Source: Blastococcus sp. CT_GayMR19
GTDB lineage: Bacteria; Actinomycetota; Actinomycetes; Mycobacteriales; Geodermatophilaceae
DNA length: 64,000 nucleotides
NCBI RefSeq assembly: GCF_004570385.1
Contig: NZ_SPQL01000001.1
Coordinates: forward strand, 310,001-374,000
Reading direction: 5' to 3'
How positions within the stretch are numbered: position 1 is the stretch's first letter; each line of letters starts with the position of its first letter. Positions 15,505 to 34,187 of this stretch are shown one piece after another. The notes below the pieces were generated by a model. The model had not been told where the DNA came from. It saw only the letters and a list, made by a program, of their open reading frames with translations, and made no database searches. The translations under genes and the position numbers were made by a program.

Positions 15505-16500
15505 TCAGTCGACGCCGCCGTAGGAGTGCAGGCCGGTTGAGACGAGGTTCACGAAGAGGAGGTTGAACACGAGGCTGGCGAATGCCAGCAGGTTGATCCA
15601 GGCCGCCGGCTTACCGCGCCACCCGGTGGTGGTGCGCGCATGCAGGTAGACGGCGTAGAGCACCCAGGAAATGAAGGCCCAGGTCTCCTTGGGATCCCAT
15701 CCCCAGAACCGGCCCCAGGCACTCTCGGCCCAGATAGCCCCGGCGATGACGGCGAAGGTCCAGATCGGAAAGCCGAAGACGGCGGTGCGGTGGGCGACAC
15801 GGTCCAGCACCGCCGCGGCAGGCAGCTTCACGGCGAGGCCGGTCGCCCGCGCGCCTTCCGCTGCGAGCCGCTTGTCGTGGCGCACCCTGACGAGGTAGAG
15901 GGCGCTGGCCACGCCGCTGACCATGAGGATGCCGAAGGAGACGATGGCCGCGGAGACGTGCACCGCGAGCCAGTCCGACCGCAGCGCTGCGATCAGCGGA
16001 CCGGCGGCGGCGTACAGATAGAGACCGATCAGGACGAGCCCGAAGACAGCGAAGCCCAGGACAAAAGCGCCCATGCGGCGCGCCCCGGGGACCCGCGTCG
16101 CGACGACCAAGTAGGCGACGACTCCGATGAGCACCGACGCCGTTCCGAACTCGTACATGTTGCCCCAGGGCACCCGACCCGTGGCCGCGCTGCGGGTGAC
16201 GAGCACCCCGGCGTGGAGCACCGCGCCCAAGGCGGTCAGGGCGAGGCCGGCGAGACCCCACCGGCGCGTCGGCGCGATCCCCTCGTTCGGCGTCGGTAAC
16301 GCCTCACTCGGCCGGAGGTCGTCGCTGCGGGAGGGGGCGCCGACATGCGCCTCCACAGCCGAGGAGCGCCTTTCGGCCCACCGGGTGCCGTGGCGTCCGA
16401 AGGCCAGTTCGGCACTGAACAGCAGCACCGCAATCGAATAGACGGCGATGGTGGCGCTGAACAACGAGTCCGACAGTGCCGACAGCCCATCGGGTGTCAT
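15505..16500 (-). CDS. ccsB: Cytochrome c biogenesis protein CcsB/CcsA (System II)
   Basis: 331-residue membrane protein of the CcmF/CcsA superfamily, the heme-handling half of the System II cytochrome c synthase with ResB. It has about eight hydrophobic segments. The heme-binding WWD block appears as IWAESAWGRFWGWDPKETWAF near 265, and conserved His residues lie in HAGVL, HVSAA and YLHARTTTGW. The ATG at 16500 has a GGAAGGA ribosome site. It is divergent from resB across an intergenic region that carries a BlaI-type dyad (16705). Confidence 0.93.
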   Translation of the reverse strand: MTPDGLSALSDSLFSATIAVYSIAVLLFSAELAFGRHGTRWAERRSSAVEAHVGAPSRSDDLRPSEALPTPNEGIAPTRRWGLAGLALTALGAVLHAGVLVTRSAATGRVPWGNMYEFGTASVLIGVVAYLVVATRVPGARRMGAFVLGFAVFGLVLIGLYLYAAAGPLIAALRSDWLAVHVSAAIVSFGILMVSGVASALYLVRVRHDKRLAAEGARATGLAVKLPAAAVLDRVAHRTAVFGFPIWTFAVIAGAIWAESAWGRFWGWDPKETWAFISWVLYAVYLHARTTTGWRGKPAAWINLLAFASLVFNLLFVNLVSTGLHSYGGVD

Positions 16501-16624
16501 ACCGGGTCCTTCCTGGGCGCCACATGGCGCCGCCGATCGGGTGACCACAAGCAGCTCGGCAGCGAGGGTGGGGCGAGCGGTGCCCTGCCGAACCTGAGAA
16601 CGCCGTCCATCCTCGCAGTTGCTC

Positions 16625-16637
16625 CTATCCCGGATAG
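16625..16637. promoter_or_regulatory. Weak second dyad in ccsB-resB promoter region
   Basis: CTATC-CCG-GATAG, followed by TAGG so that the right side reads GATAGTAGG as in the dyads at 37518 and 44060. It is only partly like the TACTA-N7-TAGTA sites and lies 125 bases upstream of ccsB, so it may be a lower-affinity site for that gene. Confidence 0.35.
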
Positions 16638-16704
16638 TAGGCACCCGGATTCCGCGCTGCTCGTCCCGCGGGCACGACCGGCCCGACGACCCGAGCCTGG
16701 CCTC

Positions 16705-16721
16705 TACTAGGGCACCTAGTA
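16705..16721. promoter_or_regulatory. BlaI-type operator between ccsB and resB
   Basis: TACTAGGGCACCTAGTA, a dyad with perfect 7-base arms around GCA. It fits the TACTA-N7-TAGTA consensus seen at six places in the window, including the promoter of the blaI gene at 38955. It lies in the divergent region between ccsB and resB and could control both. Confidence 0.7.
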
Positions 16722-16820
16722 ACGTGTCCCCAGCATCCCCTCCCTCGGCCGACCCCGCCGCCCGGTCAGGATCAGCAGTAACCAGTCCGCCGACGCCAGG
16801 CGGCGCGTGAAGGAGCCGCC

Positions 16821-16895
16821 GTGAGCACCCACTCGAGGGCCCGGCCGACTCCGACGGTGCCGGTCCGCAGCCAGGCCGGAGCGAGGATGCCGTGA
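16821..16895 (+). CDS. 24-codon upstream ORF coupled to resB
   Basis: GTG start with AAGGAG seven bases upstream; 24 residues rich in Arg and Pro. It ends at a TGA that overlaps the resB GTG start (GTGA). The strong ribosome site and the overlap suggest a leader peptide that couples or tunes resB translation. The peptide has no recognisable motif, so it could also be chance. Conservation of the overlap in related genomes would decide. Confidence 0.4.
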   Translation: MSTHSRARPTPTVPVRSQAGARMP

Positions 16896-18514
16896 CCGAC
16901 GTGCAGACGCGTCGGCCGGCACGGCCGCCGGCCATCCCGTCCCGGGGCCCGCTGCTGAAGCTGGGACACTGGCTGCTGCGCCGCTGGCGGTGGTTGACAA
17001 GCATGCGGACGGCGGTGGTGCTGCTGTTCCTGCTGGCGCTCGCGGCTGTACCGGGCTCGCTGTTCCCGCAGCGGTCGCTGACCCCCAGCGCGGTGGCCCG
17101 GTACTTCCGGGAGAACCCCGACCTGGCGCCCGTCCTCGACTGGCTGGGCATGTTCGACGTCTTCACCAGCCCGTGGTTCTCGGCGGTCTACCTCCTGCTG
17201 TTCGTCTCGCTGATCGGCTGCCTGGTGCCGCGCTGCATCGAGCACCTGCGGGCCGTGCGGGCCGATCCGCCGCCCGTGCCGCGGCACCTGCACCGACTGC
17301 CGGTTCACGCCACCGCCGAGGTGTCGCTGCCCGCGGAGGCCGTGGCCGCGCGAGTCGAGGCCGACCTGCGGGCGGCGCGGTTCCGGGTGTCCCGGCGCAC
17401 CACCGCCGACAGCGTGGAGATCTCGGCCGAGCGTGGCCGGGTGAAGGAGACCGGCAACCTCGTCTTCCACCTCTCGCTGCTGGCGCTGCTGGTCGCGCTG
17501 GCCGGCGGCAAATTGTGGGGTTACGAGGGCAGCATCTTGGTCACCGAGGGAGACGGCTTCTGCAACTCCTTCCAGCAGTACGACCGGTACGTCGCCGGGC
17601 CGTTGGTCGATCCGGACAGCCTGACGCCGCTCTGCTTCGACCTGCAGGACTTCCGCGCCACCTACGAACTCAACGGCACGCCGGCCTCGTTCACCGCCGA
17701 CATCCGGGTGCAGGCCGAACCGGGAGTACCCACGGAGCAGACGACGATCGGCGTCAACGACCCCTTCCGCTCCGACGGCGACCGCCTGTACGTGACCGGG
17801 CACGGCTTCACGCCCCTGTTCACCGTGACGCTGCCGGACGGTCAGGTCTTCGAGGAACTCTCGGCGCCGTTCCTGCCCACAGACAGCACCACGTTCGCCA
17901 GCGAGGGGGTGGTGAAACTCCCCGACCTCGGGGACGGTTCCGGTGACGGCTTCGCCCTGGAGGGCTTCTTCGCCCCGACCGGCCTGGTCCAGGGCGGCGT
18001 CCTGACCTCCGTGGACGCGCGGCCGCTCAACCCGCAGGTCGCCATCATCGGCTACCGCGGCTACCTGGGGCTGGAGAGCGGTGAGCCGCAATCGGTGTTC
18101 ACACTCGATCAGACCCAGATCGACGTGGGGGCGCTGAACCGGATCGGCGAGGGCAACCTGGGCATCGGGGAGAGTGCGACACTCGAGGACGGCACAGTGG
18201 TCCGGTTCGACGGGTTCCGGGAGTTCGCAGCCCTCCAGGTCTCGCACGATCCAGGGCAGGTCGGCGTCCTCATCAGCGCCATCAGCATGCTGCTCGGGCT
18301 CCTGGCGACCCTGCTGGTGCGCCGCGAACGAGTCTTCGCCCGAATCTCAGACACCCAGATGCCCCACGGGGACTCGAGTCGACCGACGACCGTCTCCCTG
18401 GCGGGACTCGCTCGGGGCGGAAACGCCGATGCTCACGAGCGACTCCGCGAACGCTTCGCAGGCCTGCTCGATGACAGCCCGTCCCGGCTGGCGGCCGGCG
18501 CCACCGCGCCATGA
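16892..18514 (+). CDS. resB: Cytochrome c biogenesis protein ResB (System II)
   Basis: 540-residue membrane protein that partners CcsB to deliver heme and ligate it to apocytochrome c. It has three early hydrophobic segments (around 35-60, 95-120, 190-210), the typical RTAVVLLFLLALAAVPGS opening helix, a large extracytoplasmic domain, and a last membrane segment (VGVLISAISMLLGLLATLL) near 480. The start is the GTG at 16892, overlapping the 24-codon upstream ORF. Its stop overlaps the lnt start by four bases. A BlaI-type dyad lies about 170-190 bases upstream. Confidence 0.92.
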   Translation: MTDVQTRRPARPPAIPSRGPLLKLGHWLLRRWRWLTSMRTAVVLLFLLALAAVPGSLFPQRSLTPSAVARYFRENPDLAPVLDWLGMFDVFTSPWFSAVYLLLFVSLIGCLVPRCIEHLRAVRADPPPVPRHLHRLPVHATAEVSLPAEAVAARVEADLRAARFRVSRRTTADSVEISAERGRVKETGNLVFHLSLLALLVALAGGKLWGYEGSILVTEGDGFCNSFQQYDRYVAGPLVDPDSLTPLCFDLQDFRATYELNGTPASFTADIRVQAEPGVPTEQTTIGVNDPFRSDGDRLYVTGHGFTPLFTVTLPDGQVFEELSAPFLPTDSTTFASEGVVKLPDLGDGSGDGFALEGFFAPTGLVQGGVLTSVDARPLNPQVAIIGYRGYLGLESGEPQSVFTLDQTQIDVGALNRIGEGNLGIGESATLEDGTVVRFDGFREFAALQVSHDPGQVGVLISAISMLLGLLATLLVRRERVFARISDTQMPHGDSSRPTTVSLAGLARGGNADAHERLRERFAGLLDDSPSRLAAGATAP

Positions 18515-21688: not shown

Positions 21689-23158
21689 TCATCCGGGCAC
21701 GACGACGGCGAGCCACAGACCTGACCCCGCGCCGAGGAGCACGGAAGCAATAGCAGCGACGTGCAAGGTGACGACAGGAGCCGTGCGGACCGCGCGCCCA
21801 ACCGTCACGGTGCTAGCCCCGCCGTCGGTGCCTCCGCCAGCCGGCACGTCCCGGGTCGCCGCCGCCGGCGCTATCCAGCGCAGGTAGTAGAAGAGGCTGG
21901 CGACGGTGTTGACCGCGGCCAGCACGACCAGCCAGGCAAGCCCGCCGTCCCAGGTGGCGGTGAAAACCGCCAGCTTGCCGACGAAGACCGCCGTGGGCGG
22001 GGTTCCGACAAGGCCGAGCAGGCACACGACGAGGCTGACGACTACCCACCGGTTCCGGCCGGCGGCCGCAGCCCAGTCGGAGATCGACCGGGCCTCGGGA
22101 AAGGCCGCCACGGCCGCGAAGGCGCCGAGGTTGGTGATCGCGTAGCCGGCGAGGTAGATGGCCAGGGCCGGAAGAGCCAGGTCAGTGCGGCCCGCGACGG
22201 CGACCACCATGAACAGGTAGCCGACCTGGCTCACCGTGGAGTACGCCAGCAGTCGGGACACGTCGGTCTGGTTGAAGGCGGCCAGGTTGCCCAGGGTCAT
22301 GCTCAGCGCGGCGATCACCGCCACCAGCAGTGGCACGTCCAACGGGACCCCGCCGAACGGCTCGGCGAGCAGCCGGAAGGCTGCCGCCACGGCGCCGATC
22401 TTCGGGATCGTGGTGATGTAGGCGGCCATCGCCGGCGTGGTTCCTGCCGTGACGTCCGGAACCCAGAAGTGAACGGGCACGGCGCCCGCCTTGAACCCGA
22501 CGCCGGCGAGGACGCCGATGACGCCGACGGCCAGCAGCGCGGCCGGCGCCTCGGGGAGGAGCGTGGCGAGCTCCGGGTAGCCGGTGGTGCCGGTGGCCAG
22601 CACGAGGGAGGTGACCCCGACCATCATCAGCACACCGACGAAGGCCCCCATGAGGTAGTACTTCAGCGTGGCCTCGGTGCCCGACGCGTCCTTGGCGAAC
22701 CCGGCGAGGGCGTAGAGCGGGATGCTCGCCAACAGGTAGGCGGCGACCAGGAGCAGCAGGTCGCCACTGGCCGCGAGCGCGATGGTGCCCAGCGCGCCGA
22801 GGAGCATGAGGACATACGCCTCGGTCTCCCGGGGATGTCCCGCGAGCGAGGACGACGCCAGGAAGACGGCAACCGCGGCCGACAGCGCGACGACGATCCG
22901 GACGATCCCGGTGGTGCCGTCGATGACCCAGGTCTCCTCGAACACCCGCGTCGGCGGATCGCTGAAAACTACGGCCGCGGCGGCCGCGCTCGCCAGACAG
23001 GCGACGATGACCACGGCCCGGACCCGCCACTGGCGGTGCTGCGGGGTCCACAGGCCTAGCAGCAGGCCGCCGCCCGCACCGAGGAGCAGCAGCAGCTCCG
23101 GAAGGAGTGCCAGCGCCTCCTCCCCCGCGCCGGTCATCCCGCCCATCGGGTCGTTCAC
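21689..23158 (-). CDS. nuoN: Complex I-type antiporter subunit NuoN
   Basis: 489 residues with about 14 hydrophobic segments of the Mrp-antiporter/NuoLMN family. Conserved Lys and Glu/His positions typical of proton channels are visible, e.g. SDVTAGTTPAMAAYITTIPKIGA-like VPDVTAG and the LLAYSTVSQVGYL block. It is the last gene of the nuoA-...-N series and its GTG start overlaps the nuoM stop (GTGA). In ordinary complex I it pumps protons in the membrane arm; here no complete peripheral arm is encoded nearby. Confidence 0.9.
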   Translation of the reverse strand: MNDPMGGMTGAGEEALALLPELLLLLGAGGGLLLGLWTPQHRQWRVRAVVIVACLASAAAAAVVFSDPPTRVFEETWVIDGTTGIVRIVVALSAAVAVFLASSSLAGHPRETEAYVLMLLGALGTIALAASGDLLLLVAAYLLASIPLYALAGFAKDASGTEATLKYYLMGAFVGVLMMVGVTSLVLATGTTGYPELATLLPEAPAALLAVGVIGVLAGVGFKAGAVPVHFWVPDVTAGTTPAMAAYITTIPKIGAVAAAFRLLAEPFGGVPLDVPLLVAVIAALSMTLGNLAAFNQTDVSRLLAYSTVSQVGYLFMVVAVAGRTDLALPALAIYLAGYAITNLGAFAAVAAFPEARSISDWAAAAGRNRWVVVSLVVCLLGLVGTPPTAVFVGKLAVFTATWDGGLAWLVVLAAVNTVASLFYYLRWIAPAAATRDVPAGGGTDGGASTVTVGRAVRTAPVVTLHVAAIASVLLGAGSGLWLAVVVPG

Positions 23159-24777
23159 CGGGCCACCAGCTGCGCCACCGCCGCGGCGGCCGGCTCGATG
23201 ACGTCCAGGAGCGCCCGCGGGAACAGTCCCAGCAGCACGGCCAGCGCGAGGAGCGGGACGACGGCGGCCAGTTCGGCCCCGTGCACGTCACGCATGCCGG
23301 TGGCCGTGCGGGGCCGCACGGCGGTCGCCGTCGCGCCGTCCTGGGTCGGGGAGGACGACGGCGCCGCGGCTGCTGCCTGGTCGTCGGGACTGCTGCCGTC
23401 CGGGAGCGACGGGACGGCAGTGGGGCCGGTGAGCAGGCGCTGCAGCGCCACGAGGAACAGCCCGGCGGTGACCAGGATGCCCGTCACGGCCAGGACGGTG
23501 GCCACCGGCGCCGCCTGCAGGGCCCCGGTGAAGATCTGGAACTCGGCGATGAAACTGGCGAAGCCCGGCAGGCCGAGGGAGCCGAAGGCGGCCACCGCGA
23601 GCAGTGCGGCGAACACCGGCGCCGGCCGGGCGAGCCCGCCCCAGTGGTCGAAGGCGTAGGTCTGCCCGCGGGACCACAGCACCCCGCTGAGCAGGAAGAG
23701 TGCGCCGGTCAGCAGGCCGTGGCTGACCATTTGGTACAGCGCGCCGACCGTGGCGATGGTGCGGGCCTCCTCGTCCGCCTGCCCGACCAGGCCGGCAGCC
23801 CCGAGCCCGAGGAGGACGTAGCCCATGTGGTTCACCGAGGTGTAGGCGATCATGCGCTTCACGTCGGTCTGCGCCAGGGCGACGAAGGCCCCCCACAGCA
23901 CGCTGATGGTCCCGACCACCACCACGACCATGGCCCACCGCTGCCAGGCGTCGGGCAGGATCGGCATCGCGATGCGGACGAAACCGTAGGTGCCGAGCTT
24001 CAGCAGGATCCCGGCCAGGATGGCCGATCCCGCGGCCGGTGCGTCTGTGTGTGCGTCGGGCAGCCACGTGTGGAACGGGAACAGCGGCGTCTTGACCGCC
24101 AGACCCAGCCCGATCGCGAGCAGCACGAGACCGCCGGCCAGCGGGGAGTCGGTCAGCGGGGGGTTCTCGGCGAGCGCGACCATGTCGAAGGTCCGCTCCT
24201 CGCTGCCGAGGAACAGCCCGATGAAACCGACCAGCAGGGCCAGCGACCCGAGGAAGGTGTAGAGGAAGAACTTCAGGGCGCTGCGTCGAGCATTGCCGTG
24301 GCCCCAGCCGGCGATGACGAAGTACATCCCGACGATCGTCAGGTCGAAGAAGACGAAGAACAGGATCAGGTCCAGCGCCGCGAAGGTGCCCAGGCAGGCC
24401 GTCTGCAGGAAGAGGAACAGCGCGGCCTGCGTGCGCGGCCGGTCCGGCTCGCGCAGCGACCAGACGGCACAGGCCAGGAACAGCACACCCGTCAGCGCCA
24501 GGAGCGGCAGGGACAGCCCGTCGACGCCGATGTGGTACCCGGCGTCCACCGTCGGGATCCACTGGAGGTCCACCTCGTAGGCGAGGTTCCCGACCACACC
24601 GGTGGCACCCCGACCCGGGTCGTACCGCCACCACATCCAGGCCACCAGAGCCAGGTCGGCGGCCGAGGCCGCGATCCACACCCAGATGGCCGCGCGGCCG
24701 GCCAGCGCCGGAACCGCGAGCAGCAGGGCGGCAGCAGCGAGCGGGAGCAGGACGACGACGGTGAGCAGCACGGTCAC
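23155..24777 (-). CDS. nuoM: Complex I-type antiporter subunit NuoM
   Basis: 540 residues, about 14 membrane segments. NuoM signatures are GVDGLSLPLL near 70, FFVFFDLTIVGMYF, the channel Lys in AVKTPLFPFHTWLPDAHTDAP (about 220), and MIAYTSVNHMGY. An insertion rich in Ser, Asp and Ala near 450 separates the last helices. The GTG start (24777) overlaps the nuoL stop by four bases. The sequence is well conserved, which argues for proton translocation rather than decay. Confidence 0.92.
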   Translation of the reverse strand: MTVLLTVVVLLPLAAAALLLAVPALAGRAAIWVWIAASAADLALVAWMWWRYDPGRGATGVVGNLAYEVDLQWIPTVDAGYHIGVDGLSLPLLALTGVLFLACAVWSLREPDRPRTQAALFLFLQTACLGTFAALDLILFFVFFDLTIVGMYFVIAGWGHGNARRSALKFFLYTFLGSLALLVGFIGLFLGSEERTFDMVALAENPPLTDSPLAGGLVLLAIGLGLAVKTPLFPFHTWLPDAHTDAPAAGSAILAGILLKLGTYGFVRIAMPILPDAWQRWAMVVVVVGTISVLWGAFVALAQTDVKRMIAYTSVNHMGYVLLGLGAAGLVGQADEEARTIATVGALYQMVSHGLLTGALFLLSGVLWSRGQTYAFDHWGGLARPAPVFAALLAVAAFGSLGLPGFASFIAEFQIFTGALQAAPVATVLAVTGILVTAGLFLVALQRLLTGPTAVPSLPDGSSPDDQAAAAAPSSSPTQDGATATAVRPRTATGMRDVHGAELAAVVPLLALAVLLGLFPRALLDVIEPAAAAVAQLVAR

Positions 24778-26645
24778 CTCACGATCAGGAGGAAGGCGAG
24801 CAGCACGCCGACGCCGGCGACCGCCTGGACGTAGTACTGGTGCAGCAGCCCGGTCTGCGGTCGGCGGGCGGCCGCACCTGCCCGCCGGCAGGCGCGGGCG
24901 GTGCCCCGGACGGCGCCGTCGATCACGCCTGTGTCGGCCCGCGCGGAGGCGGCAGCGGCCCGGGTGACCGCCCGTGCGACGCCCCGCACCGCGCCGTCGA
25001 TGGCGCGGTCGTCCAGGGCAGCGGCCACCCGGGCCACCGCCATTGCCGGCGCCGGGGACAGCAGTCGCCGCAGGCCGACCCAGGTCCCGAGCGGGCCCCG
25101 TTCGAGAGCCCGGACCACACCGGGCCGCGCCCGGACCACGACGACCGAGACCACGAGCGCGGCCACCGCGAGGACCCCGCCCAGCAGGAGGCCGCCCAGG
25201 TCCACGGGTTGCGCCTCGACACCGAGCACGTCCTCCAGCGCACCCGCCACCGCGGGCACCGCCAGCGCGCCAAGGCCGGCGGCCGCGATCGCGAACACCA
25301 CAGCGGTGGCGGTGGCCGGCACCGGGACCCGCCGCGTGCCAGGTTCCTCGTCGTCCAGCGGCTCGTCGCCCGTGGGCGCGGCGAGGACGACAGCGATGAT
25401 CTTGGCGGCGTACACCGCCGAGATCACCGCGGCCGCCAGACCGAGCACGCGCAGCGGTGCGCTGTCGGCCTCGGCGAGGATGCCCTCCTTGGTCGCCCAC
25501 AGGGACAGCGGGGGAATCCCGGCCAGCGCCAGCGCAGCCACGGTGGCCGCGGCGCCGATGCCCGGATAGCGCCGCGCCGCGCCACGCAGCCCGGGCAGCT
25601 GCTTGGTGCCCAGCGCCGTCAGCCATGACCCGGCGGCGACGAAGAGACCGGCCTTGACCGCCGCGTGGGCGACCAGCTGGCCCGTCCCACCTGCGGTCGC
25701 ACCGATCCCGGCAGCGAGGACGACGAAGCCGATCTGGGCGGCGGTGCTGGCGGCGAGGAGCTGCTTGAGGTCCCGCTGCGCCACGGCGACCGCGCCGAGC
25801 ACGAGCGCGGTGAGCGCGCCCGCCCAGGCGGCGGCGGTGGCCGCCCAGCCGGTGGCCGCGAGCAGCGGCTGCGTGCGCAGGAGCAGATATCCACCGGCCG
25901 CGACCATGGTCGCCGAGTGGAGCAGCGCGCTCACCGGGCTCGGCCCGGACATGGCGCCGGAGATCCATGCGGAGAAGGGCATCTGCGCGGACTTGCCCAG
26001 CGCCGCGACCAGCACGCCGGCCGCGGCCAGGTCCAGCCAGCCGCCGTCCGCGGTCGCGAGGTCCTCGAGGACGAGCCCGCCCGTCCCGGCGAGCGCGGCA
26101 CCGGCCGCGACGTAGAGCCCGAGGTCGCCGGCGCGCGTGGTGAGGAACGCCCGGGTCCCGTCGTTCAGCTTGCCCGGGTCCTGCCACCGGTACCCGATCA
26201 GCGCATACGACGTCGCGCCCATCACCTCCCACGCCAGCAGCAGCGCCGGGAACGTGGTGGCGGTGACCGTGGCCAGCATCGCCGCGATGAAGAGCAGGAA
26301 GTAGCCGAAGAAGCGGGCACGCGCCGCCTCCGGGGGCAGGTCGACGACGGCGAACACGGTGGTCAACAGCGCCACGGAGGCGACCAGGACCACGAGAACG
26401 GCGGACAGCCCGTCGACGGCCGCCCCGAGCTCGCCGCCCGGGATGATCCCCAGGAACGGCGCCGACAGTCGAGGTCGGTCACCGGCGACCAGCGCCGCCA
26501 GCGCGAGGGCACCGACGGTGGCCAGCACGGCGGCGGGCCCGGCGACGCGATCGGCCCGCCGGCCCGTTCCGAGCAGCAGGACTCCGAGCACGGCCGGCAG
26601 GAGGACGAGGGCGCCCAGCGCCGTCGTTCCCAGGGACCCGCTCAT
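24774..26645 (-). CDS. nuoL: Complex I-type antiporter subunit NuoL
   Basis: 623 residues. The N-terminal antiporter core shows LLLAWEVMGATSYALIG, the PFSAWISGAMSGPSPVSALLHSATM-type block that carries the channel residues, and LLAASTAAQIGF. The C-terminal part, which in complex I forms the lateral helix HL, is present but Arg/Ala-rich (positions about 510-600), and ends with one more hydrophobic stretch. The ATG start overlaps the nuoK stop (ATGA). No peripheral-arm genes follow. Confidence 0.9.
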   Translation of the reverse strand: MSGSLGTTALGALVLLPAVLGVLLLGTGRRADRVAGPAAVLATVGALALAALVAGDRPRLSAPFLGIIPGGELGAAVDGLSAVLVVLVASVALLTTVFAVVDLPPEAARARFFGYFLLFIAAMLATVTATTFPALLLAWEVMGATSYALIGYRWQDPGKLNDGTRAFLTTRAGDLGLYVAAGAALAGTGGLVLEDLATADGGWLDLAAAGVLVAALGKSAQMPFSAWISGAMSGPSPVSALLHSATMVAAGGYLLLRTQPLLAATGWAATAAAWAGALTALVLGAVAVAQRDLKQLLAASTAAQIGFVVLAAGIGATAGGTGQLVAHAAVKAGLFVAAGSWLTALGTKQLPGLRGAARRYPGIGAAATVAALALAGIPPLSLWATKEGILAEADSAPLRVLGLAAAVISAVYAAKIIAVVLAAPTGDEPLDDEEPGTRRVPVPATATAVVFAIAAAGLGALAVPAVAGALEDVLGVEAQPVDLGGLLLGGVLAVAALVVSVVVVRARPGVVRALERGPLGTWVGLRRLLSPAPAMAVARVAAALDDRAIDGAVRGVARAVTRAAAASARADTGVIDGAVRGTARACRRAGAAARRPQTGLLHQYYVQAVAGVGVLLAFLLIVR

Positions 26646-26959
26646 CCGCGCAGGTCCGTAGCCATGTCGACCATGTCGACCTGCCGCGCCCGGTAGATGG
26701 CCACCGTCACGGCAAAGCCCATGGCCATCTCCACCGCCATGACGACCAGGGCCACGACGACGAGCATCTGCGCATCCGGCAGCTCCGGGGCGATGAAGTA
26801 CCAGGCCGCTCCGCCGGCCAGCAGGACGCCGTTGAGGACCAGCTCGAGGCCCATCATCACCATCACGATCGACTGCTGGGACAGCGCGCCGAACAGCCCG
26901 ACGCCGATCAGGCCGGCGGCGACGGTGAGCACGATCTGCAGCACCAGTTCGGCGGTCAC
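26642..26959 (-). CDS. nuoK: Complex I-type subunit NuoK
   Basis: 105 residues, three membrane segments, the usual NuoK length. The conserved Glu in the second helix is present (VMMGLELVLNGVLL, Glu about 38) and the third helix has the second conserved Glu (VMAVEMAMGFAV, about 76). It overlaps nuoL and nuoJ by four bases at each end, so the set is translationally coupled. Confidence 0.92.
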   Translation of the reverse strand: MTAELVLQIVLTVAAGLIGVGLFGALSQQSIVMVMMGLELVLNGVLLAGGAAWYFIAPELPDAQMLVVVALVVMAVEMAMGFAVTVAIYRARQVDMVDMATDLRG

Positions 26960-27537
26960 CGCGGCAGCCCGCCAGGAATCGGGTCGTCCGGCCGCTTCGC
27001 GGCGAGGTCCGCGCCGAAGCGGTCGTAGCGCCCGCGCGCGGTGGCGAGCACCGTGCCGGCGAGGATGGTCGCGAACAGCCCGATGCCGATCATCAGCATG
27101 ACCAGCATGTGGCTGCCCATGATCGCCTCGCCGAGCTGACGGGTGCTGTCTTCCGGCCGCTCGGTACGCCCGATCGGCCAGTCCACCGTCCAGATCCCCA
27201 CGACCAGGACGACGAACGCCACGGCGCCGGTGAGGGCCGAGCCGCGGGCGTTGTGCACCATCGTCATCGGCATCAAGCCGGCCGGGTTCATCATGAACAT
27301 GATCATGAAGACGGCCATGATGGCCATCTCGATCGTCATCATCAGCGCCGTTACCACGGCCAGGTAGACGAGGTCGAAGGCCAGCAGGACGCCGGCCACC
27401 GCCAGGAACGAGGCGAGGAGGGCGAAGGTCGCCCGGGCCATCGAGTCGACCACGAAGACCGCGATCCCCCCGGCCACCGACAGCACACCGAGCACGACCA
27501 CGGCCGCGATCGTCCAGCCCGACAGGTCGGTCAGCAC
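26956..27537 (-). CDS. nuoJ: Complex I-type subunit NuoJ
   Basis: 193 residues with five hydrophobic segments. The third helix, where NuoJ has its pi-bulge and conserved acidic residues, reads DLVYLAVVTALMMTIEMAIMAVFM, unusually rich in Met. I choose the GTG at 27537 because GGAGGAGG lies 6 bases upstream and the longer in-frame extension is nuoH read in another frame. It is the fourth gene of the block and overlaps nuoK. Confidence 0.88.
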   Translation of the reverse strand: MLTDLSGWTIAAVVVLGVLSVAGGIAVFVVDSMARATFALLASFLAVAGVLLAFDLVYLAVVTALMMTIEMAIMAVFMIMFMMNPAGLMPMTMVHNARGSALTGAVAFVVLVVGIWTVDWPIGRTERPEDSTRQLGEAIMGSHMLVMLMIGIGLFATILAGTVLATARGRYDRFGADLAAKRPDDPIPGGLPR

Positions 27538-27554
27538 GTCCGTCCTCCTCCCGA

Positions 27555-28502
27555 TCAGACCGCGTAGAAGCCGGACAGCAGCAGCACCGCCACCACCAGG
27601 GCCTGCACCAGCGTCACCGGGATCAGCACCGTCCAGGCCACTTCGACCACCCGATCGGGACGCAGCACCGGCAACCGCCGGCCCGCCCAGACCAGGGCGA
27701 CGACGACGGCGACCGTCTTCAGCAGCTGCCACACCGGGCCGGGCAGCCACGGCCCGGAGCCTCCGCCGAGGAACAGCGCCACCGCCATGGCCGCAGTGGC
27801 GCCGAGGAAGATCACCCGGCCCGCCTCCACCAGCAGCCGGTCGACGCCGGAGAGCTCCGAGGTGACGCCGCCGGCGATGTCCGCTCCGGTCGGTGCGCCG
27901 AACGGCCCCCAGAACGCGAAGGCCGCGGCACTGGCGAGGAACACCACGAACGCGACCGGCATCGACACGACGAACCACAGACCGGCCTGCGCCGACAGGA
28001 TGTCCGCCGTCCGTAGGGAGCCCGCCCCCACCCCCACGGTGATCAGGGAGAACATCAGCGGCAGCTCGTAGGCCAGGCCCTGCGCGAGGAACCGGTACCC
28101 CCCGGTCAGCGCGTGGATTGCATTCGGGCCCCAGCCGACCAGCCAGACGGCCGCCCACAACAGCGCCTCCATGGCGTTGAACCACACGAGGTCCGCACTG
28201 CTCGACCACAGGGTCCGGCCACCGATCGGGACGACGGCCATGGACAGCACCGCCAGCACCGGCACAGCAGCAATGCCCGACCGCCACAACAGCCGGTCCG
28301 GGGCGAGCGTCGTCCGCCGCTGCTCGGTCAGGAGGCGAACGCTGGAGCGCACCGGCTCGAGAACCGCCGCCCCTCCCCCGCCCGAGAGCACGACCCGGTC
28401 CACCGCCGCCACCAGCCACCCCAGCCCCAGCGCCACGCCGGTGACCAGCAGGGCCGCGGGCAGCACCCCCCAGGCCGCCGCCGCGGTCTCCGCCTCAGGC
28501 AC
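27555..28502 (-). CDS. nuoH: Complex I-type subunit NuoH
   Basis: 315 residues, about eight membrane segments. NuoH normally forms the quinone-entry chamber with NuoB and NuoD. Recognisable parts are PDRLLWRSGIAAVP, GPNAIHALTGGYRFLAQGLAYELPLMFSL and FWGPFGAPTG. In canonical NuoH the first cytoplasmic loop carries a run of Glu/Arg for quinone coupling (for example YELP); YELP is retained here. It overlaps the upstream fusion gene by 8 bases and lies 17 bases from nuoJ. Confidence 0.88.
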   Translation of the reverse strand: MPEAETAAAAWGVLPAALLVTGVALGLGWLVAAVDRVVLSGGGGAAVLEPVRSSVRLLTEQRRTTLAPDRLLWRSGIAAVPVLAVLSMAVVPIGGRTLWSSSADLVWFNAMEALLWAAVWLVGWGPNAIHALTGGYRFLAQGLAYELPLMFSLITVGVGAGSLRTADILSAQAGLWFVVSMPVAFVVFLASAAAFAFWGPFGAPTGADIAGGVTSELSGVDRLLVEAGRVIFLGATAAMAVALFLGGGSGPWLPGPVWQLLKTVAVVVALVWAGRRLPVLRPDRVVEVAWTVLIPVTLVQALVVAVLLLSGFYAV

Positions 28503-29721
28503 GGGCCTCCTCCGGCTCCGTGTTGGCTGCCGACCGGTCGAGTGCGACGCTGGCGACGATCAGGCGGGCGGTCCCCAGCTCGGTCCCCTCCAGCACCGCG
28601 GCGACCTCGTCAAGCGACGCCGGCGACGCCGGCACGTGCCCGTCGGCGCCCAAGGCCACGTCGCACCACCTGCGTACCCGGTCGAGGACGTCGCCGTCCC
28701 CTGCGCTCCCGCGTTCCGAGGGCAGGTGTCCCGCGCCGCGGACGGTCCATGCCAGCGCCCGCGAGCGACGCACTCGCCGCGCCACGCGCGCGGCCCGGCG
28801 CCGGGCCGTCGCGAGCTCGCTCTGGCCCGTGGAGGCAAGACCATCGCGGGCGCACCGGGCATCGCGTGCGGCGGTCGGCCACCCGGCGACGAGGAGAAGC
28901 GAGGCGAGCTGGTCGAGCGCCGCCCGTTGCGGATGCACGTCCGCCGGAGGAGAGCTCCCGTCGTCAGTGGCGTCCACCCAGGACAGACCGGCACCGGTCA
29001 GGACGTCGCCCTGGAGGTCAGCCCGCAGGAGGAGGCCTGTGGGCCACCCCGGAAGGACGGGTCCGATCGACACCCGAAGGACGTCCAGTGCCAGCCCGTC
29101 CCGATCCGGTGCGGTCTCCGCCATGGGCAGTCCGGCGACTTCGCCGCCGTGATGCATGTGATGACCCGCATGCCCCCCGCCGCCCATGGCGGTGTGGTCC
29201 ATGCCCTCCTGTCTGGAGTGGTCCATCCCCTCGTGGCCCGAGTGGTCCATGCCCGCCATGCCAGCGCGGTCCATGCCCTCGTGGCCCGAGTGATCCATGC
29301 CCTCGTGACGCGAGTGCTCCATGCCCTCGTGAGTCGAGTCGTCCGTGCCCTCCGGCGAGTGACCAGCACCGGCGCGAGCCGGAAGGGCACCATCGACGTG
29401 CTCTTTGGGCGTCGCGGCGCCGAGCGCGTGAAGCGTCTCCTCCAGTCGGTGGTGCAGGTCGGTGGTGGCGCGAAGGTCGACCCGGTGCCGGGGCTGAGCA
29501 ACTTGGGACCACAGGACGTCGATGGCCAGAGCGAGTTGTGGGCCCGGCGTGCCGAGCACGAGGAGGACGTCGGTGTCGGCCGGCGACATCGCCAGCGGCC
29601 AGCCCCGGCGGTCGAGCTCTGCCTCCACCGCCCACCTGCGCTCGACGGTGCCCGGCGCATCGACGATGAGGACGCGGGGTCGGGCGAGTGCCCAGGCCCG
29701 GAGTCGGCGACTCAGGTCCAT
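28495..29721 (-). CDS. Degenerate NuoB-NuoD-like fusion with His/Met-rich repeat
   Basis: 408 residues in three parts. Residues 1-110 resemble NuoB: SPADTDVLLVLGTPGPQLA and VLWSQVAQPRHRV align with the SPRQADLMVVAGT and LYDQMLEPKWV blocks, but none of the four cysteines of cluster N2 is present. Residues 130-195 hold six 8-residue repeats (type HSGHEGMD) plus HHMHHGG, a likely soft-metal or copper-binding region. Residues 200-408 resemble NuoD (VSIGPVLPGWPTGLLLR, LLLVAGWPTAARDA, LAWTVRGAGHL), yet the quinone His of NuoD is replaced. It overlaps nuoA (10 bases) and nuoH (8 bases). I read it as a repurposed connector; the homology is by eye. Confidence 0.65.
   Translation of the reverse strand: MDLSRRLRAWALARPRVLIVDAPGTVERRWAVEAELDRRGWPLAMSPADTDVLLVLGTPGPQLALAIDVLWSQVAQPRHRVDLRATTDLHHRLEETLHALGAATPKEHVDGALPARAGAGHSPEGTDDSTHEGMEHSRHEGMDHSGHEGMDRAGMAGMDHSGHEGMDHSRQEGMDHTAMGGGGHAGHHMHHGGEVAGLPMAETAPDRDGLALDVLRVSIGPVLPGWPTGLLLRADLQGDVLTGAGLSWVDATDDGSSPPADVHPQRAALDQLASLLLVAGWPTAARDARCARDGLASTGQSELATARRRAARVARRVRRSRALAWTVRGAGHLPSERGSAGDGDVLDRVRRWCDVALGADGHVPASPASLDEVAAVLEGTELGTARLIVASVALDRSAANTEPEEARA
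29191..29334 (-). repeat. 24-bp tandem repeat coding HxxHEGMD units
   Basis: Six consecutive 24-base units, each coding eight residues of the type THEGMEHS, RHEGMDHS, GHEGMDRA, GMAGMDHS, GHEGMDHS, RQEGMDHT. The units differ at several codons, so the array is not freshly duplicated. It lies inside the NuoB-NuoD-like gene and supplies many His and Met residues. Confidence 0.85.
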
Positions 29722-30053
29722 CGCAGGGCGCCTTCCCGCCAGACGTAGACCACGCCGACGAGCAGGACGGCCAGGAAGCCGAACATCTCGACGACGGCCC
29801 CGACGCCCATGTCGGCGAGCACCACGGCCCACGGGTACATGAAGATCATCTCCATGTCGAAGGCGAGGAAGAGAATGGTGATCGCGTACCAGCGCGCGTG
29901 ATACCGGGAGGCCGCATGCTGCTGCGGCAGCATGCCCGACTCGAACGGCATGACGTCCGTCGCGCGGCGGGCGATGGCCATCAACGACGACGCACCGTAG
30001 AGAGTGGCCACGAGAGCGCCGACCAGCGCGAAGAGGGACAGGACGGCGAGCAC
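29712..30053 (-). CDS. nuoA: Complex I-type subunit NuoA
   Basis: About 113 residues, three membrane segments. The conserved loop of NuoA is present as PFESGMLPQQHAASRYHARWY, with Ser in place of the usual Cys of YECG, then ILFLAFDMEMIFMYPWA with its conserved acidic residues. I start at the GTG at 30053, 6 bases after GAGAGGA; GTG at 30059 is an alternative. It is the first subunit gene of the block and lies 134 bases downstream of copA on the same strand, so co-transcription with the copper operon is possible. Confidence 0.85.
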   Translation of the reverse strand: MLAVLSLFALVGALVATLYGASSLMAIARRATDVMPFESGMLPQQHAASRYHARWYAITILFLAFDMEMIFMYPWAVVLADMGVGAVVEMFGFLAVLLVGVVYVWREGALRWT

Positions 30054-30187: not shown

Positions 30188-32557
30188 TCAGCCCTGGGCT
30201 GTGATACCTGTCAGCGCACCGGGGACGCGCGTGCCGTCCGGACGGTGACCGGCCCCCGCTCCCCCATCGGTCCGGTTCGAGGCAAGGGCCTTGAACCGGC
30301 GCAGCCGCAGGCTGTTGGAGACGACGAACACCGACGAGAACGCCATCGCAGCCCCGGCCAGCAGGGGATTGAGCAGGCCTGCAGCGGCGAGCGGCAGCGC
30401 CGCGACGTTGTAGGCGAAGGCCCAGAAGAGGTTGCCCTTGATCGTGCTCAAGGTCTTCCGGGACAGCCGGATCGCGTCGGCCGCGGCCCGCAGGTCGCCA
30501 CGGACCAGCGTCAGATCACTCGCTTCGATCGCCGCGTCGGTTCCGGTGCCCATGGCGAGACCGAGGTCGGCCTGCGCGAGGGCGGCGGCGTCGTTCACGC
30601 CGTCACCCACCATGGCGACGACCTTGCCCTCGCCCTGGAGCCGCTTGACCACGTCGACCTTCTCCTGCGGCAGCACCTCGGCGATGACCTCCGTGATGCC
30701 CACCTGAGCGGCCACCGACCGGGCCACGGTCTCGTTGTCGCCGGTCAGCAGCACCGGCGTGAGACCGAGGTCGCGCAGCTGGCGGACGGCCTCGGCCGAC
30801 GTCTCCTTGATCGCGTCGGCCACGACGAGGACGCCGCGGGCCGCGCCGTCCCAGCCGGCCACGACCGCCGTCCTGCCCTCTGCCTCAGCGGCGGCCTTGG
30901 CGCGCTCGAGCTCCGCGGGCAGCTGCTGGGACCACTCGGCGAACAGCCGGGACCGGCCGACGATCACGGCGTGACCCTCGACGATCCCCTGGACGCCGAG
31001 CCCCCCGACGTTGCTGAATCCTTCGACCGGTGGCAAGGCGCCCGTGCGCTCGGTGGCCCCCTTGGCGATCGCCTGGGCGATGGGGTGTTCGGAGGCGTCC
31101 TCGAGCGCACCGGCCAGCCGCAGCAGCCGGTCGGCGTCCTCGCCGGACGCCGGGACGACGTCGAGCAGGGTCATGCGGCCGGTGGTGACGGTGCCGGTCT
31201 TGTCCAGGACGACGGTGTCGACCTTGCGGGTGGACTCCAGGACCTCCGGGCCCTTGATGATGATGCCGAGCTGCGCGCCGCGGCCGGTGCCGACCATCAG
31301 CGCGGTCGGCGTGGCCAGGCCGAGGGCGCACGGGCAGGCGATGATCAGGACGGCGACCGTGGCGGTGAAGGCCGCCGTGATCCCGGCCCCCGCGCCGAGC
31401 CAGAAGCCCAGGGTGGCGACGGCCAGGGCGATGACGATGGGCACGAAGATGCCCGACACCCGGTCGGCGAGCCGCTGGACCTCGGCCTTGCCGTTCTGTG
31501 CTTCCTCCACCAGCCGCGCCATCTGCGCGAGCTGGGTGTCGGAGCCGATGCGGGTCGCGCGGACGACGATGCGGCCGCCGGCGTTCATGGTGGCGCCGAC
31601 CACGCCGTCACCGGGTCCGACCTCCACCGGGACGGACTCGCCCGTGAGCATCGAGGCGTCGACGGCCGAGGAGCCCTCGGTGATCACGCCGTCGGTGGCG
31701 ATCTTCTCTCCCGGTCGGACGACGAACAGGTCACCGACGGCCAGTTGGTCGACGGCGATCCGCTCCTCGCGCCCGCCGCGCAGGACGGAGACCTCCTTGG
31801 CACCCAGTTCCAGCAGCGCCCGCAGCGCCGCCCCTGCGCGCCGCTTGGAGCGCGCCTCGAAGTACCGGCCGGCGAGGATCGCCGTGGTCACGCCGGCGGC
31901 CACCTCGAGGTAGATGTTCGCCGCGCCGTCGGTCGCGCTGATGGTCAGCTCGAACGGGTGCGTCATGCCCGGCATGCCGGCGGTACCGAAGAACAGCGCG
32001 TACAGCGACCACCCGAAGGCGGCCAGGGTGCCCATCGAGATGAGCGTGTCCATGGTGGAGGCGCCGTGGCGCAGGTTCGTCCACGCGGCCTTGTGGAAGG
32101 GGTAGGCACCCCAGACCACGACCGGGGCGGCGAGCGTGAGAGAAAGCCACTGCCAGTAGGTGAACTGCAGCGCCGGGATCATCGCCATCGCGATGACGGG
32201 CACCGTGAGCGCGGTGGAGACCAGGAGGCGCTGGCGCAGCGGGGCGACGGGATCCCGCCCGTCGGGCTCCCCGCCTTCCACACCGGTCGTCTCCGCGCGC
32301 GGCGGCTCGGGCAGCCGGGCGGTGTAGCCGGCCTTCTCCACGGCGGCCACCAGGTCATCGGGCGTGACGCCGTCGGCGAAGGTCACCTTGGCCTTCTCGG
32401 TGGCGTAGTTGACCGTGGCGGTGACGCCGTCGAGCTTGTTGAGCCGCTTCTCGATCCGCATGGCGCACGACGCGCAGGTCATGCCGCCGATCGTGAGCTC
32501 GACCTGGTCACCGCCGGCCGGGGTCGGCGATGTCGTGCTGTTCGTCGCGGAGCTCAC
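30188..32557 (-). CDS. copA: Copper-exporting P1B-type ATPase CopA
   Basis: 789-residue Cu(I) ATPase of the cytoplasmic membrane. It has one N-terminal heavy-metal-associated domain with GMTCASC (about 25-31), eight predicted membrane segments, TGES, the transmembrane copper site [11 protein letters not shown], the phosphorylation site [15 protein letters not shown], and [10 protein letters not shown]. It is preceded on the same strand by copZ and a 60-residue His/Met-tailed membrane protein and by csoR, and followed by the nuo-like block. Regulation by CsoR at the 33542 site is likely. Confidence 0.96.
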
Positions 32558-32607: not shown

Positions 32608-32790
32608 TCAGCTGCCGGTGTCGCCGCTCATGTCCATGCCGTCGTGGCCGGGGTCGTCCTGCGCCGGCGATTCGGTCTGGTCAGCCGCCGGTCCGACGGG
32701 TCCCACGGAGCTCCCGATGCCTAGGGCCGCGGCGAAGACGACGACCAGACCCACCAGGTAGCCGCCGACCTTGGCAGCAGTGCCGTTCAC
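32608..32790 (-). CDS. Small membrane protein with His/Met-rich tail
   Basis: 60 residues. One membrane helix (VGGYLVGLVVVFAAALGIG, about 7-25) is followed by an extracytoplasmic tail ending GHDGMDMSGD, a short metal-binding-type stretch. The GTG start (32790) follows GGAGGAG, a strong ribosome site. It sits between copZ and copA. Small proteins of this kind are common in actinobacterial copper operons but lack a proven function; a copper relay to CopA is a guess. Confidence 0.75.
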   Translation of the reverse strand: MNGTAAKVGGYLVGLVVVFAAALGIGSSVGPVGPAADQTESPAQDDPGHDGMDMSGDTGS

Positions 32791-32851: not shown

Positions 32852-33112
32852 TCACTTGCAGCCGCAACCGCAGCCGGACGAGGTCGCCGACGCCGGCTCC
32901 TCGACCGGCGCCGCGACCTCGTAGCCGGCCTCCTCCACAGCGGCCCGCACGGCGGCGTCGTCGATGTCGGCATCGCTGGTGACGGTGAGGCCGCCGCTGG
33001 CCAGGTCGACGTCGACGCCCGTGACACCAGGCACCTGCGTGACCTCCTCGGTCACCGAGTTGACGCAGTGCCCGCAGGTCATGCCGACGACGGTGTACGT
33101 GGTGGTGCTCAT
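32852..33112 (-). CDS. copZ: Copper chaperone CopZ-like
   Basis: 86 residues. A single heavy-metal-associated fold has the copper-binding GMTCGHC at 10-16, and a C-terminal tail ends GCGCGCK with three extra cysteines, which is unusual for CopZ. It should carry Cu(I) to CopA in the cytoplasm. It lies between csoR and copA on the same strand and follows csoR by about 93 bases. Confidence 0.92.
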   Translation of the reverse strand: MSTTTYTVVGMTCGHCVNSVTEEVTQVPGVTGVDVDLASGGLTVTSDADIDDAAVRAAVEEAGYEVAAPVEEPASATSSGCGCGCK

Positions 33113-33205: not shown

Positions 33206-33511
33206 TCAGGAGCGGACGAGACGGGCGATGGCCTCGGATGCCTCGCGCAGCTTCTGCTCGGCCTCCGGCCCACCCGCGGCGGCCGCTCCGACTACGCAGT
33301 GGCTCATGTGCTCCTCGAGCAGGCCGAGAGCGACGGACTGCAGCGCCTTCGTCATGGCCGAGACTTGCGTGAGGATGTCGATGCAGTACTTCTCGTCCTC
33401 AACCATGCGCTGCAGACCGCGGGCCTGACCCTCGATACGACGAAGCCGCTTGAGGTAGTCGTCCTTGCGGTGGATGTAGCCGTGCGGACCCGCCGACTCC
33501 GTGGTGCTCAT
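33206..33511 (-). CDS. csoR: Copper-sensing repressor CsoR
   Basis: 101-residue all-helical repressor (DUF156). The Cu(I) ligands Cys-His-Cys are visible as YCIDIL (Cys about 43), then EEHMSHC (His about 68, Cys about 72), as in mycobacterial CsoR. RLRRIEGQARGL is the signature N-terminal helix. The start is preceded by a TACCC-N5-GGGTA dyad at 33542, a typical CsoR operator, 31 bases upstream. It heads the copper operon and is divergent from the Csp-like store. Confidence 0.94.
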   Translation of the reverse strand: MSTTESAGPHGYIHRKDDYLKRLRRIEGQARGLQRMVEDEKYCIDILTQVSAMTKALQSVALGLLEEHMSHCVVGAAAAGGPEAEQKLREASEAIARLVRS

Positions 33512-33541: not shown

Positions 33542-33556
33542 TACCCGGTAGGGGTA
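33542..33556. promoter_or_regulatory. CsoR operator upstream of csoR
   Basis: TACCC-GGTAG-GGGTA, with outer bases giving GATACCC...GGGGTACC. CsoR sites are G-tract dyads of this kind. It lies in the 268-base region between csoR and the Csp gene, next to the csoR start. Confidence 0.7.
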
Positions 33557-33712: not shown

Positions 33713-33779
33713 GCGACCGTTGTCGGCGCCTTCCGGTTGGCGTCTGCCGCCCGCGCCGGCATCGAGAGGAGTGACCGTC

Positions 33780-34187
33780 ATGAGCGTTGCCGGCCAGATG
33801 CTGGAGGCCTACCCGAAGGATCTCGGCGGGGTCGACCGCCAGAAGCTGCAGGAATGCATCGACGCGTGCTTCGAGTGCGCCCAGGCCTGCACGGCCTGCG
33901 CCGACGCCTGCCTCAGCGAGGACATGGTGGCCGAATTGACCACGTGCATTCGGACGAACCTCGACTGCGCCGACGTCTGTGACACCACGGGCCGGGTCCT
34001 CTCCCGGCACACCGGTTACGACGCCAACCTCACCCGCGCCGTCCTGGAGGCCTGCGCCGCCGCCTGCAAGGCCTGCGGCGACGAATGCGCCCGGCACGCC
34101 GAGATGCACGAGCACTGCCGGGTGTGCGCCGACTCCTGCCGCCGCTGCGAAGCGGCCTGCAGGGACCTGATCAGCTCCCTCGGCTGA
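33780..34187 (+). CDS. Four-helix-bundle copper storage protein (Csp-like)
   Basis: 135 residues, about 20 cysteines in helical CxxxC and CxxC repeats (CIDACFECAQACTACADAC, CADVC, CAAACKACGDEC, CRVCADSCRRCEAAC) and His residues at the opening. This is the pattern of Csp copper storage proteins, which line a four-helix bundle with cysteines to hold many Cu(I) ions. There is no signal peptide, so it is the cytosolic type. The ATG at 33780 follows GAGAGGAG. It is divergent from csoR, so copper is likely its inducer. Confidence 0.9.
   Translation: MSVAGQMLEAYPKDLGGVDRQKLQECIDACFECAQACTACADACLSEDMVAELTTCIRTNLDCADVCDTTGRVLSRHTGYDANLTRAVLEACAAACKACGDECARHAEMHEHCRVCADSCRRCEAACRDLISSLG

Follow-up and report, generated by a model that had tools for sequence, protein, structure and literature searches.

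What can a membrane arm of respiratory complex I be doing when it is encoded without the redox arm and directly behind copper-resistance genes? The question is raised by a 64-kb stretch of DNA from Blastococcus sp. CT_GayMR19 (contig NZ_SPQL01000001.1, positions 310,001 to 374,000; 64,000 nucleotides, hereafter the window), in which the genes nuoA'-BD'-nuoH'-J'-K'-L'-M'-N' occupy positions 21689-30053 of the minus strand, in canonical order and with touching or overlapping ends according to the open reading frame (ORF) list and Pfam. Judged from sequence, this cassette belongs by descent to the complex I superfamily and fails its defining redox features. The reading favoured here, to which we give a probability of roughly 0.55, is that a whole complex I membrane arm has become a proton-driven exporter of Cu(I) (and Ag(I)), in which the E-channel would serve as a methionine-lined path and the quinone module as a copper-loading domain, providing plasmid-borne copper tolerance across phyla. 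The parts of the cassette, including a methionine ladder in the third transmembrane helix (TM3) of NuoJ', are as follows.

29712..30053, minus strand: nuoA' (Pfam Oxidored_q4, E 5e-28; 113 aa, as in several relatives)
28495..29721, minus strand: BD', a fused NuoB-like and NuoD-like protein of 408 aa (profile matches to NuoB and NuoD chains)
29143..29361, minus strand: Met/His-rich joint of BD' (MDHSGHEGM-type repeats in the sequence), predicted to bind copper
27555..28502, minus strand: nuoH' (Pfam NADHdh, E 1e-40), acidic quinone loop reduced
26956..27537, minus strand: nuoJ' (Pfam Oxidored_q3, E 5e-11)
27292..27342, minus strand: stretch encoding the methionine ladder MMxxEMxxMxxxMxxxM of NuoJ' TM3 (pattern match)
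26642..26959, minus strand: nuoK' (Pfam Oxidored_q2, E 2e-13)
24774..26645, minus strand: nuoL' (Pfam Proton_antipo_M, E 3e-44)
23155..24777, minus strand: nuoM' (Pfam Proton_antipo_M, E 3e-65)
21689..23158, minus strand: nuoN' (Pfam Proton_antipo_M, E 7e-45)

The longest ORFs of nuoA' and nuoJ' start at 30116 and 27561, and residue numbers of NuoA' and NuoJ' refer to these frames of 134 and 201 aa. The initial annotation of this DNA had described seven subunits (A, H, J, K, L, M and N) in canonical order, as borne out by Pfam matches on the minus strand, and had reported NuoC, E, F, G and I to be missing from the block, where indeed none is found among the ORFs or Pfam matches. It had also raised the matter of a separate complete nuo operon, and a canonical nuoA-N operon of 14 ORFs in order is present on a different contig of the same genome (NuoB, NuoD and the three antiporter subunits were identified by Pfam, the others from their order, their length and blastp matches to other nuo loci); a third contig holds two more antiporter-type matches. 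The cassette is thus an extra copy and not the complex I of the cell. Its subunits share 31-39% blastp identity with this canonical complex I (A 32, H 31, K 32, L 33, M 39 and N 34%), and NuoJ' has no blastp match to it at E 1e-4.

In complex I, the small subunits (NuoJ TM3, NuoK and NuoA) form the E-channel, the connection between quinone site and proton channels, and it is these subunits that have gained methionines in the cassette. TM3 of NuoJ' and the following loop read MMxxEMxxMxxxMxxxM...M.M.H in 53 of 53 aligned rows, the window among them and 16 from Geodermatophilaceae, with M74, M75, M79, M82, M86, M90, M91, M99, M101, H103 and M152 present in every row. The five canonical NuoJ rows lack all of these residues, apart from a single Met in column 99, where the alignment is loose, and carry VY or IY, I or V, L, and V, G or T at the ladder positions; Tyr59 of E. 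coli NuoJ is kept in all five and is Met in all 53 cassette rows. Projected on an ideal helix, M75, M79, M82, M86 and M90 fall within 80 degrees, forming one face. The DNA pattern of the ladder has a single match in the window and none in 100 shuffles.

Columns of methionine gain, defined as Met in at least 90% of cassettes and in at most one of the five canonical rows, number 2 in NuoA', 11 in NuoJ' and 4 in NuoK', with none in NuoH', L', M' or N' (17/382 versus 0/1802 columns; Fisher p 1e-13, a guide only, because the rows are related). Mean Met content is likewise raised over the canonical subunits in J (9.0 versus 3.0%), K (9.2 versus 4.3%) and A (5.7 versus 2.7%), and lies below the canonical value in H, L, M and N. 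The gains in NuoK' (M33 and M74 in 53/53 rows, M35 in 48 and M78 in 50, corresponding as a set to E. coli positions 30, 32, 69 and 73) adjoin the kept glutamates E36 (53/53) and E72 (51 Glu, 2 Asp). In NuoA', M90 and M93 (50/50) and H73 (49/50) are gained, and the two methionines correspond to E. coli positions 82 and 85, just after the kept E81 (50/50). Rows of this type are met in copper transporters: CusA has been proposed to pass Cu(I) along a "methionine ladder" (extract of PMC7558416), and CTR1 uses an MxxxM motif for Cu(I) (extract of PMC12731240).

The second line of evidence is the company that the cassette keeps. In the window it follows copA within a csoR-copZ-copA unit on the same strand, as the initial annotation had stated and the Pfam identities of the upstream genes confirm; a small membrane ORF containing Met and His lies between copZ and copA.

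33542..33556, no strand: predicted CsoR type-2 operator form TACCC-N5-GGGTA, 31 bp upstream of csoR
33206..33511, minus strand: csoR, copper-sensing repressor (Pfam Trns_repr_metal, E 6e-30)
32852..33112, minus strand: copZ, copper chaperone (Pfam HMA, E 8e-17)
32608..32787, minus strand: small predicted membrane protein with a Met/His-containing C-terminus (ORF, start codon set by eye; without Pfam match)
30188..32557, minus strand: copA, heavy-metal (Cu) P-type ATPase (Pfam E1-E2_ATPase, Hydrolase and HMA)

This association recurs in relatives. A CsoR-family (PF02583) gene lies within 10 kb of 20 of the 35 cassettes in a phylum sample that excludes the Blastococcus genome, where gene number and genome size would lead one to expect 0.45. 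In a family sample that includes this genome the count is 15 of 49 cassettes (0.58 expected). By the same measure none of 28 canonical NuoD genes in 22 genomes has such a neighbour (0.35 expected), this control omitting two weaker NuoD-like genes (G087 and G119; 115 bits), neither of which shares a contig with a CsoR-family match. Eighteen plasmid regions were chosen for spread from the records found. In 13 of them, including the cassette remnant L087, the flank is annotated with genes of copper type, namely heavy-metal P-type ATPase, CsoR, CueR, Cus-type RND, CopB/C/D, multicopper oxidase or cupredoxin. A CueR gene is found near two cassettes on alphaproteobacterial plasmids (L094, L095).

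The operators point the same way. TACCC-N5-GGGTA is the form of the tested CsoR operators of Streptomyces lividans, according to an extract of PMC3902906; its match before csoR is the only one in the window, and 100 shuffles gave none. Exact boxes number 15 in 9 of 54 cassette loci, against 1.1 expected by base shuffling, and none occurs in the five canonical loci. Some of them lie about 17 bp (L062) and 24 bp (L085) before nuoA', between csoR and nuoA' (L070, L090), or before csoR-nuoA' (L066); the inverted repeats seen in two promoter stretches are not the CsoR box. Because CsoR-type boxes precede nuoA' in some relatives, the cassette looks like a CsoR target in several lineages. Its linkage to copper is well supported. 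In four loci of family f40 (L063, L065, L067 and L069), an ArsR-family gene and not CsoR stands directly before nuoA', and another sensor may control these copies.

The third line of evidence concerns BD', which stands where the redox module would be expected. The window BD' alone has no Pfam match. A 22-row BD' profile matches NuoB chains of the PDB over profile positions 29-84, at a best E of 1e-11. Its match to chains of NuoD or of hydrogenase large subunits (E 3e-11) owes its score to positions of about 271-390, the stretch of about 171-250 being weak alone. On the strength of these matches, the "degenerate NuoB-NuoD fusion" of the initial annotation is correct. The tandem CC of cluster N2 is found in none of 45 BD' proteins, and GPxHPxxHG, which we take to be the quinone-site motif of NuoD with the His that binds quinone, is not kept beyond GP in the 22 aligned BD', at a position where the aligned NdhH chain carries GPHHPSMHG. 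The window BD' has two cysteines in total, and those of L069, L072 and L074 have none. Group 4 NiFe hydrogenases carry NiFe-binding cysteine pairs in their NuoD-like subunit, and such pairs are missing from BD'.

What BD' has acquired between its two halves is a metal-binding type of joint. In the 45 proteins, 13 contain the motif of the heavy metal-binding domain HMBD, 23 reach 12 or more His/Met within 40 residues and 14 have a short GxGM(M/T)GG, these classes overlapping, and five fall below all three cut-offs (L017, L019 and L027 with 11 His/Met, L084 with 9, and L064 with a His-rich stretch). Ten further proteins (L021-L026, L087, L090, L093 and L099) were left out as cut by a contig end, split, remnant, interrupted or not annotated whole. 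Rubrobacter-type relatives have HMBD (PF19335) and a Met/His stretch in place of the Met/His joint; in the four scanned by Pfam, HMBD (E 3e-13 to 2e-27) lies ahead of the NuoD-like part (E 2e-10 to 2e-19), and in three of the four a sub-threshold NuoB-like part lies ahead of HMBD. Pfam scans of ten BD' relatives gave NuoB/NuoD families, HMBD and other weak sub-threshold matches.

Several copies are interrupted or cut off at or near this gene. The contigs of L021-L025 (Blastococcus and one unverified draft) stop inside the Met/His repeats, separating the gene from nuoA' and the upstream genes. In a Pseudarthrobacter defluvii plasmid (L093, 7542-9362), the BD' region is naturally interrupted by an IS3-family transposase gene, with the other subunit genes annotated whole. 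The remnant on plasmid pXAUT01 of Xanthobacter autotrophicus (L087, 12615-13306) consists of nuoA' and a short BD' piece, near a bilirubin oxidase gene.

The redox route is also altered in NuoH'. By E. coli numbering, in 53 rows, E218 is absent or replaced in all 53, E241 is Arg in 52, and E216 is replaced by A, D, T, L or V in no fewer than 51 (Asp in 16); E157 is kept in 31 and D213 in 22, E220 is Asp or Glu in all 53, and E228 is kept in all 53. As the N2 cysteines, the NuoD motif and the NuoH' loop residues are partly or wholly gone, the redox site has been taken apart, with some of the acidic route retained. The possible copper-dependent donor of the initial annotation, understood as a source of electrons, is therefore not supported, while its broader idea of an ion-translocating module driven otherwise than by NADH and linked to copper is upheld by the conserved cassette, the copper genes and operators, the metal-binding stretches and the ladder. 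Copper looks like a transported ion or a ligand, not an electron donor.

The proton-channel residues, the other point on which the initial annotation had asked for a check, are kept in two of the three antiporter subunits. NuoL' retains its channel residues (for example K229 in 52/52 rows), as does NuoM' (K234 and E407 each in 50/51, the exceptions being a gap or Asp), its TM5 Glu being Asp in 38/51. L and M should still carry protons, and N is altered. Compared with the cassette of Geodermatophilus aquaeductus (L013), dN/dS is 0.05-0.27 for the membrane subunits; the comparisons with L020 and L014 give 0.12-0.25 for these subunits and 0.30-0.36 for BD'. By these ratios the cassette evolves under purifying selection and is no relic.

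The same architecture is widespread. A related-locus search gave 15 loci, all from Geodermatophilus, Blastococcus or Modestobacter save one unverified record. The BD' profile matches 27 of 396 Actinomycetota genomes, the Blastococcus genome among them; 24 of the 26 others were read (all except G164 and G185), of which 21 show the order A-BD'-H-J-K-L-M-N as far as the contig extends. The remaining three (L058, L059 and L060; E 4e-4 to 7e-4, similar to the E values of G164 and G185) are canonical complex I, left out of the cassette counts and used as canonical rows. The canonical C, E, F, G and I gave no blastp match in the 21 cassette loci screened. Several matches in family f19 span no more than the section of the BD' profile at the Met/His joint and were considered as possible low-complexity artefacts; this was rejected because their neighbourhoods are real cassettes.

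The 51-base DNA pattern of the NuoJ' ladder has matches in 45 of the 112 Geodermatophilaceae and 35 of the 396 Actinomycetota genomes scanned; the reversed pattern has none in either set. It recovers 21 of the 22 genomes with cassettes known from BD' (missing G253, on a 3.9-kb contig) and matches 14 further Actinomycetota genomes at the level of the DNA pattern, which makes their loci candidate cassettes. Two matches each occur in G195, G400, G408, G421 and G453, which probably have two cassettes per genome. In viral contigs the pattern has 11 matches (L100-L110), none with a blastp match to the cassette membrane subunits.

Searches by tblastn with BD' or NuoJ' gave matches on plasmids of actinobacteria (Rubrobacter, Curtobacterium, Mycobacterium, Rhodococcus, Gordonia, Arthrobacter, Pseudonocardia, Ornithinimicrobium and Pseudarthrobacter) and proteobacteria (Sulfitobacter, Paracoccus, Roseovarius, Roseivivax, Thioclava, Nitratireductor, Acuticoccus and Halomonas/Vreelandella). 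The parts of the cassette are publicly annotated as "NADH-quinone oxidoreductase subunit", "complex I subunit 1 family protein", "proton-conducting transporter membrane subunit" or "heavy metal-binding domain-containing protein". In a quick concatenated H-L-M-N tree (LG+G4; 40 of the 50 cassette rows with H, L, M and N, ten near-identical ones being left out, and five canonical rows), all cassettes fall on one side with an SH-aLRT support of 100. In a NuoM' tree with canonical L and N as outgroup and no Mrp rows, the NuoM' of 18 cassettes make up a single clade (97) nested among the rows of NuoM. By these trees, and by the fusion and ladder common to them, the cassettes form one clade, as compared with the few (five) canonical rows. 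Alphaproteobacterial cassettes adjoin family f19, which includes Rubrobacter, and those of Halomonas, Acuticoccus and Roseivivax adjoin other actinobacterial families; this nesting of proteobacterial beside actinobacterial cassettes suggests transfer between phyla.

With redox parts lost, copper-type Met rows gained and copper-resistance genes often nearby, the cassette probably moves copper ions and not electrons. On this evidence the complex very probably handles Cu(I) or Ag(I) in some way; that it acts as a secondary, proton-coupled Cu(I) exporter through the NuoJ' ladder is rather probable, with transport, direction and coupling each deduced. In the proposed mechanism, BD' would dock on NuoH' at the usual site of the quinone module and collect Cu(I) from the cytoplasm or from CopZ. 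The ion would be handed to a path through NuoH', J', K' and A', along the Met ladder of NuoJ' TM3 and the methionines of NuoK' and NuoA', and its passage would be coupled to proton flow through NuoL' and NuoM' (and the altered NuoN'). The proton gradient would thereby drive Cu(I) out, making the complex a secondary exporter beside the ATP-driven CopA. The direction of export, the weakest step of this proposal, we infer from the CsoR/CueR linkage and the copper-export neighbours.

Several observations weigh against this exporter reading. CopA, a Cu(I) exporter, is already present in the same operon. PF02583 also contains sensors of other ligands; 15 of the 35 and 34 of the 49 cassettes have no CsoR-family gene within 10 kb, for some of which contig breaks may account, and among the 15 positive family-sample cases are a CsoR piece interrupted by a stop (G453) and a few members of a lower-scoring subgroup (about 80 bits) that are perhaps not copper-sensing. 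Annotated copper genes are missing from five of the 18 plasmid regions (L091, L092, L093, L097 and L099, the last unannotated), and 45 of the 54 cassette loci lack an exact CsoR box. M74 and M91 of NuoJ' lie off the ladder face of the ideal helix, and the residue comparisons used only five canonical rows. In NuoN', the TM5 Glu (E133) is L, V or F in 50/50 rows, and the TM7 Lys (E. coli K217) is Glu in 7/50. BD' evolves fast, with a dN/dS of 0.59 against its nearest relative (L013), and AlphaFold2 models from shallow alignments were of low confidence and unusable (mean predicted local distance difference test, pLDDT, 49 for BD' and 54 for NuoJ'). The exporter model is built on sequence, and its direction and proton coupling are putative.

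The main rival is a copper-gated ion antiporter, in which Cu(I) bound to BD' and the Met ladder would switch proton (or sodium) flow through NuoL', M' and N' under copper stress, copper itself not being transported. The intact channel residues of L' and M', the CsoR-type operators and the position of the ladder on the very helix by which complex I gates its E-channel all agree with it, but some ten methionines along the whole helix and loop, together with those in two neighbouring subunits, exceed what a sensor site would need, and we hold it to be fairly unlikely. Less probable again is a copper importer or metallation device that loads the envelope or cuproenzymes: Met motifs are also found in importers such as CTR1 (extract of PMC12731240), and multicopper oxidases or cupredoxins lie near some cassettes, but CsoR/CueR genes and CopA/Cus/Cop neighbours indicate excess copper, and BD' is expected by homology to be cytoplasmic. 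A proton pump driven by Cu(I)/Cu(II) chemistry at BD'/NuoH' in place of quinone chemistry would explain why a metal-binding stretch occupies the place of the former redox module; the loss of the NuoD quinone motif, of the paired N2 cysteines and of some of the NuoH acidic loop, and the finding of no electron donor or acceptor subunit in the cassette, make it very improbable. A decaying, non-functional remnant, suggested by the missing redox subunits and the broken copies L087 and L093, is rejected on dN/dS values well below 1 and on conservation, with one clade across two phyla and the ladder in 53/53 rows.

The exporter proposal has to be placed among known systems. With respiratory complex I the cassette shares the seven membrane subunits in order, the NuoL/M channel residues, the NuoK and NuoA glutamates and the NuoB- and NuoD-like parts; it differs in lacking NuoC/E/F/G/I, the N2 cysteine pair, the NuoD quinone motif and the NuoN TM5 Glu, and in having gained the J/K/A Met ladder, the metal-binding joint and the copper-gene neighbourhood. 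Mrp Na+/H+ antiporters and DAB CO2-uptake systems also use complex I membrane subunits without a redox arm, Mrp having MrpA/D-type subunits and no NuoH, NuoA, NuoB or NuoD. The cassette is unlike both in the presence of NuoA, NuoH and BD', and NuoM' is nearer to complex I NuoM (E 6e-72) than to MrpA (E 4e-37). Ehr complexes and group 4 membrane hydrogenases contain NuoD relatives, and Ehr has also lost the catalytic cysteines; to our knowledge they keep other subunits and are not linked to copper. The cassette is unlike them in having NuoA and in the fusion of B and D around a metal-binding joint.

CusA, a proton-driven RND pump, and CTR1, a trimeric importer, have folds unrelated to that of the cassette. 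What they have in common with it is a Cu(I) methionine ladder or MxxxM path (extracts of PMC7558416 and PMC12731240). The HMBD (PF19335) of copper ATPases and RND adaptors is the same domain as that in BD' of the Rubrobacter/alphaproteobacterial branch, where it joins the NuoB-like and NuoD-like parts, and tblastn with HMBD-type BD' also matches copper ATPases and RND adaptors through this domain. No P1B ATPase, RND, CTR or CopD domain is found in the window cassette proteins, whose Pfam matches are to complex I families only. No description of the cassette was found among the best-ranked matches of a search in open-access full text. We rate the cassette as categorically new in kind, with its function proposed from sequence.

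Further features lie beside the cassette.

33777..34187, plus strand: DUF326 Cys-rich protein (Pfam DUF326, E 7e-14), with blastp homologues in cassette loci L062 and L072
34302..34910, minus strand: DUF305 protein, a recurring cassette neighbour (Pfam DUF305, E 2e-48)

The DUF326 protein is one that we take to resemble copper storage proteins. A DUF305 gene is also found near the cassettes of L061, L070, L073, L077, L078, L080, L081, L084, L085 and L090. A few kb from the cassette, at 15505-18514, inspection by eye shows ORFs that resemble ResB/CcsB cytochrome c biogenesis proteins.

It has long been asked how the chemistry at one end of complex I is coupled to distant proton movement in the membrane. 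If the exporter reading is true, the cassette would be a natural complex I that has lost the quinone chemistry and has another driver at the same coupling element (NuoJ TM3 and the NuoK and NuoA glutamates), making coupling testable without electron transfer. It would also constitute a new plasmid-carried class in copper homeostasis, and would account for genes annotated as stray "NADH-quinone oxidoreductase subunits" beside copper genes.

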